Assembly (NCBI GenBank): GCA_019359045.1
Contig: JAHHIA010000016.1
Location: 62,001-126,000 of the forward strand
Direction: 5' to 3'
From: Scytolyngbya sp. HA4215-MV1
GTDB taxonomy: Bacteria > Cyanobacteriota > Cyanobacteriia > Leptolyngbyales > Leptolyngbyaceae
DNA: 64,000 nucleotides
The position numbers and the translations under genes are program-made. The notes beneath the pieces are model-generated. The model did not search any database, had not been told where the DNA came from, and saw nothing but the letters and a program-made list of their open reading frames with translations. Of this stretch, positions 8,786-13,563 are shown piece after piece. Numbering within the stretch: position 1 is the stretch's first letter; each line of letters opens with the position of its first letter.

Positions 8786-9145
8786 ATGATTTGTTCGCAT
8801 CATCTCTTTGCCATCCTGCCTGCTAGAGAGGCTGTTCTGGAGATGACCAGTACGGCGTTGTTAAATCTGATGAAAGCAGCAGTGACTCAGGCGGGACTGA
8901 GAGCCGTGGGAGAAGTCACTACAACCTTTGAGCCACAGGGAGTTTCTGCCATCTTGTTGCTAGAGGAGTCCCATGTGGCTTTGCATGTCTGGACAGAGCA
9001 CCAAAAAGTCACGATCGACATCCATATTTGCGACTATCAACAAAATAATCGTCCTAAAGCAGAAAAACTGGCTACCTTCCTGGAAGCAAAGATTTGCGCA
9101 AAGGGAGATCGGGCACACTGGAACTATTTATCAATCACGGGTTAG
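8786..9145 (+). CDS. S-adenosylmethionine decarboxylase-like (SpeD-like) proenzyme
   Basis: This 119-residue protein aligns in outline with class 1B AdoMet decarboxylase proenzymes, which self-cleave before a serine to make a pyruvoyl group. The key positions are kept: Ser62 in LLEESHVAL (the cleavage and pyruvoyl serine), His67 and Cys82 in DIHICDY, matching S63/H68/C83 of the Thermotoga enzyme. The N-terminal CSHHLFAI resembles the GRHLVAE start. It is diverged overall, so the substrate may not be AdoMet. It opens a five-gene plus-strand cluster with a SpeE-like gene, which supports a polyamine-type reaction. I leave the symbol blank because it need not be the housekeeping SpeD. Confidence 0.78.
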   Translation: MICSHHLFAILPAREAVLEMTSTALLNLMKAAVTQAGLRAVGEVTTTFEPQGVSAILLLEESHVALHVWTEHQKVTIDIHICDYQQNNRPKAEKLATFLEAKICAKGDRAHWNYLSITG

Positions 9146-9255
9146 CGAATCGAAACCTCAACCGACCCTTCAACCCATGCAATAAGAAGTTTTGAGGACT
9201 GCGGGGTAGAGAAACATTTTGGGTTATGACTTGAGAGGACTCCTCATTCTTCCTC

Positions 9256-9960
9256 ATGAGCAGCGTTGAAACCAGTCTCCGCCAACTCCGTGACGGCGAT
9301 CGCGTTCAATATCACGGCATCCAGTGGCAAGTAAAAGACTACAGCACCTATACCGACCACGGATACGAAACCGAAGAATGGCTCCTCACTGCGCAAACAG
9401 GTAAAGAATACTATCTGCTGCGCGAGGTCGATCCGGCACACCAGTTAACCCCGATTCAATGGTATATCGCAGAGGAACTTCAAGATCCCTGCCTTTATGA
9501 CCCCCATTCTGCACGAGATGTCACTCTGGATCTAGCAGATGCCATGCGTCACTACCAAAGCCCTTATCCAGAGTTGCAGCTCTTCAATCGGGTTTATCAA
9601 TTCGAGTCTCAAACTGCAGGGGACTACGAATCAGACGGTAGCACTCTAACCCGTATTACCTGGGATTATTGGGACCCTTCCCACCTCTGGAACCTGGCAC
9701 TCGAAGCCTGGAGCCATGGAAAGCTATGCGTCTACTCTACCCGTACAGTGCAACCGACCGACTTCACTCAGATCGATTACCACTTTGGCAACCAGTCCTC
9801 GGGTAATTTTTCTGCATCGACCCATTTTGGAACCTCTAGCGTTGTGGGTGGGCAGTCGTTCGGTTCTCAAATCAGCAACCTTTCCGCCCGCAATAAGCAA
9901 TTCATTGCTGCCTGGCTTATCACGATCGTTGGCTTTTTATTCTTCATTGCAGGTATTTAG
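9256..9960 (+). CDS. DUF4178 domain protein with C-terminal membrane anchor
   Basis: The 234-residue protein starts with a DUF4178-like beta-rich region (RQLRDGDRVQYHGIQWQVKD, EEWLLTAQTGKEYYLLREVD) and continues with a second beta-rich part to about residue 175. A Ser/Gly/Gln-rich linker (SSGNFSASTHFGTSSVVGGQ) leads to a single C-terminal membrane segment (FIAAWLITIVGFLFFIAGI). The soluble part is thus probably held at a membrane. DUF4178 proteins are known to be encoded near polyamine-type enzymes and DUF350 proteins, as here; the biochemical role is unknown. A 110-base gap separates it from the SpeD-like gene. Confidence 0.75.
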   Translation: MSSVETSLRQLRDGDRVQYHGIQWQVKDYSTYTDHGYETEEWLLTAQTGKEYYLLREVDPAHQLTPIQWYIAEELQDPCLYDPHSARDVTLDLADAMRHYQSPYPELQLFNRVYQFESQTAGDYESDGSTLTRITWDYWDPSHLWNLALEAWSHGKLCVYSTRTVQPTDFTQIDYHFGNQSSGNFSASTHFGTSSVVGGQSFGSQISNLSARNKQFIAAWLITIVGFLFFIAGI

Positions 9961-10093
9961 AAACAAGGGCATGACTGGCGACAGAGCCTCCTAATGGTGT
10001 ACCCCAGCGGAGCGTGGAAGCAAACCTCCGCCGACCCCTAATACCTGACCACCCTCTAAAATCCTAATCCTAGTCCAAGATCCAAAATCCCCC

Positions 10094-11611
10094 ATGCCTG
10101 CTTCCCTCTTCATCGAACAACATGCTCAGGGTCTTGCCTTTTACATCAATGGCAACCTGCAATTTGACACTGCGGATGAAGCGATTTATCACGAATACCT
10201 GGTGGTTCCCGCGATCTCGTTGGCAGTTCGGCGGTTTCCTGGTACGCCTCTGCGGGTCTTGATCTGTGGTGGCGGCGATGGGTTGGCAGCACGGGATGTG
10301 TTGCGCTTTGCGGAAGTGGCAGAAGTGACACTGGTGGACTATAGCCCCGCTGTATTGGAATTAGGCAGAACTGTGTTTAGTCCCTACAACCAGGGCAGTT
10401 TGTTAGAAGACGGTCAAACGGCACTGGGTGCCAGTCGGGTTGCGGTATATACGCAAGAGGCGTTTGAGTTTGTTTCTCGTTTGCCCGATCGGGTGTTCCA
10501 TGTCATCATTTGTGACTTTACATCTCCTACCACGCCTCAAGAAACCCGCATCTATAGCCGCGAGTGGTTTGCTGAGGTGGTGCGGATATTGCATCCGGCT
10601 GGAGTGGTGGCTGAAAATGCCGTCTCTCCTGAGCAAACTCCCACCGCCTTCTGGTGTCTCTACCAAACACTGCTGGCAGCCGGGTTACAGCCCAAACCGA
10701 TGCAAATCCCTATCCCTTCGTTTCGATCGCATGACTATGGAGATTGGGGCTTTTTTCTGGCTTCACCTCAACCCATTCTCCGAACGGAACTGGAAACGCT
10801 CTCTGTACCAGCGGGGTTGCAGGCGTTCCAAGCAGAATCGTGGTTGACAGTATTCCAATTTACTGCGGCGCTCGCGGCGCATCGCCACAGCCTCTGTATC
10901 CATACCCTTGCATGTCCACAGTTGTTCTATTACTTACTCAATCCCCAAATTCCGAGCCAGGAGGCAGGGACACGCTCCTCCTCTCAAGGGGCCGATTGGA
11001 TTGATTTTCTCGACATTCAGGAACCGGGTACGGGCTTAATCGGCACGCTGGATTTGCTCCAGTTAGATTCAATGGCAAAAGTTTGGCTGGAGCGCATGAG
11101 GGCATCAGACAATCCTCTGCATGACCCAGCGGTTTGGGAACCTTTCATTCCGGTGCAACACAGTTATCACAGTCCCAAAATGACGCGAGAATGGCTGGGT
11201 TATTTAAGATCTCTGCTGACAGAAATTGATCTTAATCAACTCCTATCCAGCCTGACCCAACGCGCACAAGAATTACCGCCCAAATTTGCGGCTGAAGTCA
11301 AGCAACTGAACGAAAAAATTCGCACGGGGCAACCGTTGACCTATGTTTCTGAACATATGACTGAGCTAATGGTCGTTTTGTCGGTTACGTTGCTTATGGC
11401 AAACCTGACCCATCCCGATGCCGTCTTCGCGAAAGGCTTTTCAGGGTTTAGCAGCCACCGATCGGGGTACGGCAGCTCATTTGACAACTACAGTAGCAGT
11501 TACGATAACGGAACGAATGCTGGGAACGGGCAGTTTGGTTGGTTTGGTTTTTGGACCATGTTGATTGGAGCTGGATGGCTTGTCAGTTTGTATCGTAATC
11601 GCGACGAGTAA
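10094..11611 (+). CDS. Spermidine synthase-like methyltransferase-fold enzyme with membrane tail
   Basis: The 505-residue protein has a SpeE-like N-terminal part: a beta-hairpin with the IYHEYLVVPA motif, the nucleotide-binding GGGDG (59-63), VDYSPAV where SpeE has its acidic ribose-binding strand, and IICDFTSPTTP with the expected catalytic Asp (D141). This suggests aminopropyl transfer from a decarboxylated AdoMet-type donor. From about residue 225 the protein is unlike SpeE. It ends with a hydrophobic stretch (VVLSVTLLMANL), a Gly/Ser/Tyr-rich segment (GFSGFSSHRSGYGSSFDNY) and a final membrane segment (FWTMLIGAGWLVSLY). It follows the DUF4178 gene and lies 36 bases before the FemAB-like gene. 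Confidence 0.78.
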   Translation: MPASLFIEQHAQGLAFYINGNLQFDTADEAIYHEYLVVPAISLAVRRFPGTPLRVLICGGGDGLAARDVLRFAEVAEVTLVDYSPAVLELGRTVFSPYNQGSLLEDGQTALGASRVAVYTQEAFEFVSRLPDRVFHVIICDFTSPTTPQETRIYSREWFAEVVRILHPAGVVAENAVSPEQTPTAFWCLYQTLLAAGLQPKPMQIPIPSFRSHDYGDWGFFLASPQPILRTELETLSVPAGLQAFQAESWLTVFQFTAALAAHRHSLCIHTLACPQLFYYLLNPQIPSQEAGTRSSSQGADWIDFLDIQEPGTGLIGTLDLLQLDSMAKVWLERMRASDNPLHDPAVWEPFIPVQHSYHSPKMTREWLGYLRSLLTEIDLNQLLSSLTQRAQELPPKFAAEVKQLNEKIRTGQPLTYVSEHMTELMVVLSVTLLMANLTHPDAVFAKGFSGFSSHRSGYGSSFDNYSSSYDNGTNAGNGQFGWFGFWTMLIGAGWLVSLYRNRDE

Positions 11612-11647
11612 GGGATTTTGACTTTCAGATGGAAGGATACGGGTGAG

Positions 11648-12700
11648 ATGAGTGTGCTGATTGAGAAGTGTATGTCTCCATGTGACTCATTGACCGTGCG
11701 ATCTCTGACTGTAGCCGATCGGGATCGCTGGGATTCCTTGCTGCGATCGCTGCCTCAGGGGTGCTTTATGCAGTCCTGGGCGTGGTCTCAGTTCAAGCAG
11801 TTGGAAGGCTACCAAATCTTTCGCTATGGGGTGTTTGAGCAAGACACCCTGGTGGGTGGTTGTATTTTTTATTTCTACGCTCAGGCAGGTGCCTCGCAAG
11901 GACACAGCGCCAGTTTGCTATTGGCACCCGGTGCTCCCTGTTTTTTGCCCAATTTTGCTTCAGTAGGAATGAAATTACTGATGGCGCAAGCCACCCAGTT
12001 AGCACAAGCAGTAGGTGCGATCGCTTGCCGCATGGAACCTCTCCTGCCAGAAAGGGCCGATTATCTCCAGGGGTTTGTGCGCGCGCCTGTAGATCTATTA
12101 CCGACAGAAACGCTGCTGATTGATCTCCGCCCTGCCCTTGACGAAATTTTGCAAGCCATGAAGCCGAAAGGTCGCTACAATGTGCGGCTGAGTCAGAAGC
12201 ACGGAGTTGAAACCCACTTTAATCAAGAGCTCCAGGCAATTCCTAAGCTTTACGATTTGTTTTGGGAAACGGTTGAGCGGCAAAAGTTTTTCGGTGAACC
12301 CTACGGCTTTTTCATTAACCTTTGTCAAAGCCTCTTTGCTGCTGATATGGCAGAAATTGGTTTGGCAACCTGGCAGGGCAATCCCTTAGCTGCCATGCTG
12401 GTTGTCTATTGGGGCGATCGGGCAACTTATCTCTATGGTGGACGCAGCGCCCAACATCCGCAGGTCATGGCAGCCTATGCCCTCCATTGGGCAGCCATGC
12501 AACAAGCTAAAGCTCGCGGTTGCCAGATCTATGATTTCTATGGCTACAGCCAGCAGCCAGAGCATAATTATTTCAAGTTTTCTCAATTTAAGTGCCAGTT
12601 TGGCGGTACACCTGTGACGACGATCGGGGCACAGGATTACTTTTTCTACGATCGCTTAGCCGATACGTTGATTGGTGTATTGAATCGGGTGATGGTATGA
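11648..12700 (+). CDS. FemAB-like peptidyltransferase / aminoacyltransferase (GNAT fold)
   Basis: The roughly 350-residue protein resembles FemAB/MurM-type enzymes, which form peptide bonds on lipid II using aminoacyl-tRNA. Visible hallmarks are the N-terminal FMQSWAWSQFKQLEGY, MKPKGRYNVRLSQKHGVE in the middle, WETVERQKFF, ATYLYGGRSA and a final block YDFYGYSQQPEHNYFKFSQFK. I chose the ATG at 11648; the open frame reaches a TTG at 11618, and an ATG at 11672 is also possible. The stop overlaps the next start (ATGA at 12697-12700), so it is translationally coupled to the DUF350 gene. In this cluster it may join an amino acid to a polyamine-like product rather than act on peptidoglycan; that is inference. 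Confidence 0.8.
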   Translation: MSVLIEKCMSPCDSLTVRSLTVADRDRWDSLLRSLPQGCFMQSWAWSQFKQLEGYQIFRYGVFEQDTLVGGCIFYFYAQAGASQGHSASLLLAPGAPCFLPNFASVGMKLLMAQATQLAQAVGAIACRMEPLLPERADYLQGFVRAPVDLLPTETLLIDLRPALDEILQAMKPKGRYNVRLSQKHGVETHFNQELQAIPKLYDLFWETVERQKFFGEPYGFFINLCQSLFAADMAEIGLATWQGNPLAAMLVVYWGDRATYLYGGRSAQHPQVMAAYALHWAAMQQAKARGCQIYDFYGYSQQPEHNYFKFSQFKCQFGGTPVTTIGAQDYFFYDRLADTLIGVLNRVMV

Positions 12701-13563
12701 ATCCAATCATTTTTGACAAACTCCTACAAATTGCGCTGGTTGCAGCCGAATTAGTCATTGGTTTTTTGGTTTTTTGGCTGGGGCAGTTGGCTTACCAAAA
12801 GCTGTTTCGTCGACTGGATTTGAATGTGGAGTTGTTTGTGCGGGATAATCCAGCGGTGGCGATCGCGCTGGTGGGGTATTACTTGGGCATTGTGACAGCC
12901 CTTTCGGGCGTGTTGAGTCAGGTGGGTCCCACCTGGCAGGATCGGTTGCTTTATCTGGCAAGCGATGGAGCCGGGGTGATTGTACTAATGCTGGTGGGGG
13001 CATGGGTGGGCGATCGCTTCATTTTGCGTCGCTGTGACACCGCTCGCGAAATTCAAGCAGAACAAAACGTCGGAGCCGCTGCCGTCGAAGCAGGAGTCCA
13101 CATCGCCAATGGACTGATTCTCAGCGCCGCACTCGCAGGTGAGAGTGGGGGTTGGCTGGTGGCGCTCAGTTGTTGGGTTCTGGGCATGGGCGTTTTGACC
13201 TTGGTCAGCTACCTGTACCCACGGGTGGCTCGCTACAATGTGTTTGGCGAAATCTGTAAGCGCAACAATCCTGCGGCAGGAGTCGCCATGGCGGGATTGT
13301 TGGTTGGCACAGGCAACGTGATTCGGGTGGCATTTGAGCCAGAATTCCAAAACTGGGGACAAAGCTTTACAGAATATGTCATTCTATTGGGCATCTGCCT
13401 GGCTGCTCTAGTAGCGATTCGCTGGATTGCCGATTTGGTATTGGTACCAGGGGTGAAAATCTCAGATGAGATCGTCCATCAGTCCATTCCCAATTTGGGA
13501 GCCGGACTCATTGAAGCCTTTGCTTATATCGCTGGGTCATTTCTGATTGCCTGGAGTCTTTAG
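12697..13563 (+). CDS. Tandem DUF350 membrane protein
   Basis: The 288-residue integral membrane protein consists of two DUF350-like halves. Related motifs mark the two copies: RDNPAVAIALVGYYLGI (about residues 49-65) and RNNPAAGVAMAGLLVG (about 190-205). Each half has about four hydrophobic segments. The ATG at 12697 overlaps the FemAB-like stop by four bases, pointing to coupled translation. DUF350 is known to be encoded next to ATP-grasp ligases, DUF4178 proteins and polyamine-like enzymes; its biochemical function is unknown. It closes the cluster. Confidence 0.85.
   Translation: MNPIIFDKLLQIALVAAELVIGFLVFWLGQLAYQKLFRRLDLNVELFVRDNPAVAIALVGYYLGIVTALSGVLSQVGPTWQDRLLYLASDGAGVIVLMLVGAWVGDRFILRRCDTAREIQAEQNVGAAAVEAGVHIANGLILSAALAGESGGWLVALSCWVLGMGVLTLVSYLYPRVARYNVFGEICKRNNPAAGVAMAGLLVGTGNVIRVAFEPEFQNWGQSFTEYVILLGICLAALVAIRWIADLVLVPGVKISDEIVHQSIPNLGAGLIEAFAYIAGSFLIAWSL

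Follow-up and report, generated by a model that had tools for sequence, protein, structure and literature searches.

A conserved cyanobacterial cluster of SpeD-like, DUF4178, SpeE-like, FemAB-like and DUF350 genes with a possible role in aminopropyl transfer at the membrane

Related systems and gene content of the cluster

The closest described systems are operons in which a spermidine synthase-like (SpdSyn-like) domain is fused to a seven-transmembrane (7TM) transporter-like domain and accompanied by DUF350 and DUF4178, often also by PspA and CesT/Tir (PMC11237479). In the same paper, polyamine genes are linked to membrane stress (the PspA response), and one passage of it refers to Li et al. 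2019 for a role of S-adenosylmethionine (AdoMet) decarboxylase that does not depend on polyamines. Here we describe a related five-gene cluster in a 64,000-nucleotide stretch, hereafter the window, of contig JAHHIA010000016.1 (positions 62,001 to 126,000) of the cyanobacterium Scytolyngbya sp. HA4215-MV1 (Table 1). It encodes SpeD-like, DUF4178, SpeE-like, FemAB-like and DUF350 proteins and is a variant of the known SpeD/SpdSyn/DUF350/DUF4178 systems, without the fusion to a transporter-like domain and with an additional FemAB-like aminoacyltransferase. The original prediction for this DNA stated that DUF350 and DUF4178 occur together with SpdSyn-like genes, which the published operons bear out. 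A literature search retrieved no paper describing FemAB with a spermidine synthase in cyanobacteria.

The cluster shares linked genes for SpeD, a SpdSyn-like enzyme, DUF350 and DUF4178 with the MFS-SpdSyn module, and its SpdSyn-like domain falls in the same clade as that of the module when compared with two canonical cyanobacterial SpeE proteins. A locus of the same phylum (L069) carries the module as a CesT/Tir-PspA-DUF4178-DUF350-x-x-MFS/SpeE-SpeD operon. In contrast, the cluster lacks an MFS domain and the PspA and CesT/Tir genes by which an operon linked to the phage shock protein (PSP) response is recognized, and it encodes neither a lipoprotein nor a small protein ending in Lys. Instead, it has a C-terminal membrane tail on the SpeE-like protein and a FemAB gene, and the diamine-anchoring Asp is lost. 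The second comparable system is the yjfL-yjfM-yjfC cluster of E. coli (DUF350, DUF1190 and ATP-grasp), in which YjfC, annotated as a peptide--spermidine ligase, is encoded beside the DUF350 gene yjfL. The ligase reportedly joins spermidine to a peptide. In both clusters DUF350 is found together with an enzyme that forms amides and with chemistry of the polyamine type, but that of E. coli has an ATP-grasp ligase rather than FemAB and no SpeE. The suggestion that FemAB occupies the place of a ligase suits the sister systems with ATP-grasp enzymes, but not the immediate relatives: FemAB appears where the MFS domain has been lost, and those MFS-type clusters that were examined have neither FemAB (none by profile search of the retrieved loci) nor ATP-grasp.

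An open reading frame (ORF) check of the window placed all five genes on the plus strand at the predicted coordinates, the last two overlapping by ATGA at 12697-12700, and all five family assignments passed the Pfam cut-offs. The first ATG of the FemAB gene lies at 11648, with an in-frame TTG at 11618. Beyond what had been predicted, the DUF350 protein is a tandem repeat, and both the DUF4178 and the SpeE-like proteins end in hydrophobic segments. Promoter and terminator signals were no more frequent than in shuffled sequences.

Conservation in cyanobacteria

The cluster is genuine, and its genes are functionally coupled and conserved far beyond chance. The comparison covered 32 loci: 26 cyanobacterial loci with a SpeE-like protein from a contig scan (Leptolyngbya, Pantanalinema, Stenomitos, Nostoc, Calothrix, Anabaena, Hyella, Pseudanabaena and others), five from a phylum search (G076, G195, G072, G022 and G191) and the window itself. 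In every one of them DUF4178, SpeE-like and FemAB genes are adjacent on one strand, DUF4178 directly preceding SpeE and FemAB directly following it, and in 25/32 DUF350 comes next. SpeD is linked in 21 loci, upstream on the same strand in 6 and downstream in convergent orientation in 15 (that of G076 assigned by genome coordinates), and lies outside the retrieved stretch in 11. Neither of the two findings that would have refuted the original prediction, genes scattered without a conserved order and a SpeD-like Ser62 or SpeE-like Asp141 that varies, was obtained. The place and strand of SpeD are not fixed. Apart from ORFs overlapping FemAB, no family besides the five recurs in more than 6/32 neighborhoods. 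Two more distant loci of the phylum, L059 and L060, also have a long SpeE followed by FemAB.

Among 145 evenly sampled genomes of the class, 12 have the SpeE tail in an intact frame of about 500 amino acids; the tandem DUF350 protein occurs in each of these 12 and nowhere else in the sample. Two sets of this size would coincide by chance with a probability of 9e-18, kinship disregarded. Within the window's own family, four genomes have both proteins and nine have neither. In four genomes (G274, G305, G321 and G347), the DUF350 and SpeE-like genes lie at a great distance from each other or on separate contigs, so that the pairing is not a matter of linkage only. A split version of the tail was considered and ruled out, real matches in the class sample occurring only inside SpeE frames of that length. 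The DUF350 orthologues (n = 20) have a mean column identity of 80%. Three Nostocales, Anabaena sp. UHCC 0204, Cuspidothrix and Sphaerospermopsis, have a DUF350 frame that is interrupted or has only 106-147 amino acids and perhaps is decaying or reduced to one repeat.

Catalytic residues, membrane segments and a possible function

The SpeE-like protein retains the predicted fold and the donor-site Asp of spermidine synthases, but not the Asp for the far end of the diamine. Residues D28, E29, Y32, H33, E34, D62 (of GGGDG), D82 and D141 are invariant in all 32 proteins, including the Asp141 singled out in the original prediction, and so is the predicted pyruvoyl Ser62 in all 17 SpeD orthologues. 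In spermidine synthases, the second Asp of the DxxDP motif anchors the far diamine end and the preceding Asp deprotonates (PMC10146546). That second Asp, kept in MFS-type relatives and canonical cyanobacterial SpeE, is replaced at position 144 by Y, C, F or S in 32/32, whereas the donor-site and base Asp of the canonical triad are invariant. The scores against TIGR00417 (the speE equivalog; 74.7 bits, cut-off 249.55) and NF002956 (199, cut-off 472) remain far below the thresholds, while the predicted structure matches spermidine synthases in Foldseek (E 3e-15). The match to PRK03612 begins at 264 of 522 profile positions, and there is no N-terminal MFS-like domain. In a tree, the long SpeE type forms one clade (100/100), and this clade and the MFS-fused type are set apart from two canonical cyanobacterial SpeE sequences (100/99), a topology to be read with caution because of its long branches and midpoint rooting.

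The C-terminal tail of the SpeE-like protein has hydrophobic helices at 420-439 and 482-501 with a disordered loop rich in Ser, Gly and Tyr between them. It is variable except for the motif NLxxPDxVFAKG between the first helix and the loop, where 6/12 positions (N437, P441, D442, F445, K447 and G448) are invariant in 32/32, with no invariant position in the preceding 21 or the following 33 residues. The C-terminal hydrophobic helix of DUF4178 is conserved as well; no relative of DUF4178 with a solved structure was found. The DUF350 protein has eight helices.

The SpeD-like protein has the residues of class 1b enzymes, S62, H67 and C82 corresponding to the pyruvoyl Ser and catalytic His/Cys (S63/H68/C83) of T. 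maritima; E61, S62, H63, H67, W69, E71 and C82 are invariant in 17/17 orthologues. At position 70, where the WPE motif has its Pro, 11/17 orthologues have P, 4/17 T and 2/17 S, the protein of the window having Thr70. AdoMet decarboxylases reportedly differ from arginine decarboxylase derivatives by a conserved Pro of this region (PMC10407285), which presumably is that of position 70. The window's SpeD is the only Ser-bearing one in its genome. A second PF02675 match there (L075) was rejected as a SpeD for want of the cleavage Ser and ESH motif; this SpeD-fold protein of 120 amino acids may have another function.

The FemAB-like protein belongs to its family by score (PF02388, 96.8 bits versus a gathering threshold of 24) and by the Fem C-terminal motif, with F315-K316 and F319-G320 invariant. 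Its profile matches include the S. aureus 6snr glycyltransferase (an aminoacyl-tRNA-dependent peptide synthase), FemA and FemX. It resembles the lipid II aminoacyltransferases FemA and FemX in fold family, in sequence profile and in having F-K...G...DY as its C-terminal motif, but lacks their coiled-coil insert, scores below the NCBIfam equivalog cut-offs and clusters with SpeE rather than with cell-wall genes.

Tentatively, with a probability of roughly 45%, we propose that the cluster encodes a membrane-held system which aminopropylates an amine other than putrescine and then aminoacylates it. SpeD would supply decarboxylated AdoMet, from which the SpeE-like enzyme, tethered to the membrane through its tail, would move an aminopropyl group to a primary amine, probably of a membrane-bound peptide or a lipid head group. 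The FemAB-like enzyme would then put an amino acid from aminoacyl-tRNA onto the amine to give an amide, and the tail-anchored DUF4178 and the DUF350 protein may hold, present or move the product. The gene set, its conservation and co-occurrence, the catalytic residues and the membrane segments are observed, while the donor, the acceptor, the order of steps and the roles of DUF350 and DUF4178 are inferred. It also speaks for the proposal that PF01564 gives no further cut-off-passing spermidine synthase in 15 genomes with the cluster and that the window's genome has a deoxyhypusine/homospermidine synthase family gene instead. If true, nature would have a second way, besides hypusine, of attaching polyamine-type groups to proteins or envelope components. 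In its cyanobacterial form the system is reduced to a few parts that include an aminoacyltransferase but not a transporter domain, and it is suited to genetic work in filamentous cyanobacteria.

Several observations weigh against this proposal. The strongest is that six genomes of the Pseudanabaena family (G191, G274, G305, G321, G328 and G347) have no PF02675 SpeD while keeping the SpeE-like and DUF350 proteins, so that decarboxylated AdoMet is not certain to be the donor there; these genomes have either another source of it or a different donor. A search for a eukaryote-type AdoMet decarboxylase, made with no positive control, found none in them. Furthermore, SpeD of the window has Thr70 where true AdoMet decarboxylases reportedly have Pro, provided that the two positions correspond. 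Members of the FemAB family use many amines as substrates, the fold search with DUF350 gave no PDB match, and no acceptor was identified.

The SpeD-less genomes, together with the inconstant position and strand of SpeD relative to the core, speak for an enzyme using another donor (for example AdoMet, with transfer of a methyl or aminocarboxypropyl group) and a SpeD that is accessory in some lineages only. We consider this unlikely: D62, Y32, H33, E34, D82 and D141 are kept even in the Pseudanabaena-type sequences, and SpeD is present in all nine of the 15 cluster-bearing genomes that lie outside that family, with its catalytic residues intact and, as described above, linked to most of the loci.

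About as unlikely would be an aminopropylated and aminoacylated membrane lipid altering the surface charge in the manner of MprF. MprF-type transferases share the GNAT fold with FemAB, and the DUF4178 and SpeE-like proteins are membrane-anchored beside the eight-helix DUF350 protein. The link of the sister systems to the PspA membrane-stress response (PMC11237479; L069) points the same way. However, no lipid-binding feature was identified, and the sister operons encode peptides and lipoproteins, not lipid enzymes.

An ordinary polyamine pathway, with spermidine or thermospermine coming from SpeD and SpeE and then receiving an amino acid from FemAB as a free small molecule, would yield the product of the original prediction, an amino-acylated polyamine-like compound at the membrane. 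SpeD and SpeE are the classical enzyme pair, and, as each of the 15 cluster-bearing genomes has no other spermidine synthase domain passing the PF01564 cut-off, they could be the only source of spermidine. Polyamine-type chemistry at the membrane is indeed retained in our proposal, but a free compound is improbable: the putrescine-anchoring Asp is lost throughout, the equivalog scores are low, the closest relatives are the MFS-fused SpdSyn-like proteins, and the membrane tail, DUF350 and DUF4178 have no place in free polyamine synthesis. The window's genome also has a gene of the deoxyhypusine/homospermidine synthase family about 20 kb before the window, probably a homospermidine synthase. This family is said to make homospermidine in Anabaena; with such a gene present, the SpeD/SpeE pair is not needed for homospermidine.

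Finally, a SpeD acting as a pyruvoyl arginine or ornithine decarboxylase, the cluster then starting from agmatine or putrescine and not from decarboxylated AdoMet, would agree with the Thr or Ser at position 70 in 6/17 orthologues but is very improbable, since the Pro is kept in the remaining orthologues of the same clusters, its identity as the diagnostic one is itself inferred and the neighboring SpeE-fold enzyme carries the donor-site Asp.

Table 1. Positions of the cluster genes and of other features mentioned in the text (unprefixed coordinates refer to the window)
Feature	Position	Strand	Description
SpeD-like AdoMet decarboxylase proenzyme	8786..9145	+	119 aa; PF02675 (AdoMet_dc) 1.7e-18; pyruvoyl Ser62, His67, Cys82
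DUF4178 protein	9256..9960	+	234 aa; PF13785 3.4e-13; C-terminal hydrophobic anchor 216-234
SpeE-like aminopropyltransferase-fold protein	10094..11611	+	505 aa; PF01564 (Spermine_synth) 1.4e-19; catalytic domain 1-283, helical extension 284-415, hydrophobic hairpin 420-501 with Ser/Gly/Tyr-rich loop
NLxxPDxVFAKG motif of SpeE-like tail	11402..11437	+	residues 437-448
FemAB-like (GNAT-fold) aminoacyltransferase	11648..12700	+	350 aa; PF02388 1.6e-27; without coiled-coil insert
Tandem DUF350 membrane protein	12697..13563	+	288 aa; two 4-helix repeats; PF03994 twice, 4.6e-43
Split or shortened DUF350 in three Nostocales	L046:10525-11101, L049:10507-10950, L050:10521-10841		
PF02675 match without pyruvoyl Ser (L075)	G000:C23:231928-232200		window's genome
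Deoxyhypusine/homospermidine synthase family gene	G000:C20:40775-41686		window's genome
Small proteins of MFS-type operons (among others)	L016:528-767, L018:411-641, L021:465-764, L023:2915-3172, L026:2958-3254, L028:338-574, L029:374-604, L073:5651-5845, L083:4765-5001, L078:9174-10706		
E. coli YjfM	L077:388-1026		partner of YjfC

Lys-ended small proteins and the acceptor

What the SpdSyn-like enzymes of SpeD/DUF350/DUF4178 operons act on is the question at issue, and the MFS-type operons offer a concrete candidate. The product of the gene just upstream of MFS-SpeE is usually a small protein in which a single hydrophobic segment is combined with a body rich in Gly, Ser, Tyr and His and a C-terminal Lys. 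The C-termini are mostly GGK or GGGPxGK (e.g., GGGPGxGK, GLSGGK), and the Lys-ended pattern also occurs in Ensifer (GGGPESGK), Novosphingobium (GPSHK), Tritonibacter (RVK) and an Alteromonas lipoprotein (GPSSGK). All 19 tails listed end in Lys and 16/19 in Gly-Lys, counts which describe a set collected by looking for such ends and are not a test. Some loci (L012, L013, L015, L019, L025 and L079) showed no Lys-ended small protein, and six examples from different lineages gave no match passing the cut-offs of Pfam and NCBIfam. The terminal Lys is a candidate aminopropyl acceptor, apparently not described before.

Separate acceptor peptides were also sought in the FemAB-type clusters, and none was found among the short ORFs. 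Likewise, the GPxxGK-stop coding pattern was absent from the window's genome and from three of five relatives, the other two having single matches at chance level. The SpeE-like enzyme might carry its own substrate instead: Lys447 of NLxxPDxVFAKG would be aminopropylated in a hypusine-like manner and then aminoacylated by FemAB. The VFA before KG appears to resemble a signal-peptidase site, and cleavage at VFA/KG would perhaps free Lys447 next to the Ser/Gly/Tyr-rich membrane loop. By analogy, this would parallel the sister MFS-type operons, where a separate Gly-Lys-ended small membrane protein would be the acceptor. We regard such a self-modifying enzyme as a long shot.

E. coli YjfM, the partner of YjfC, has a Ser/Gly-rich tail ending in GHWGG, and its make-up is like that of the small proteins of the MFS-type operons.

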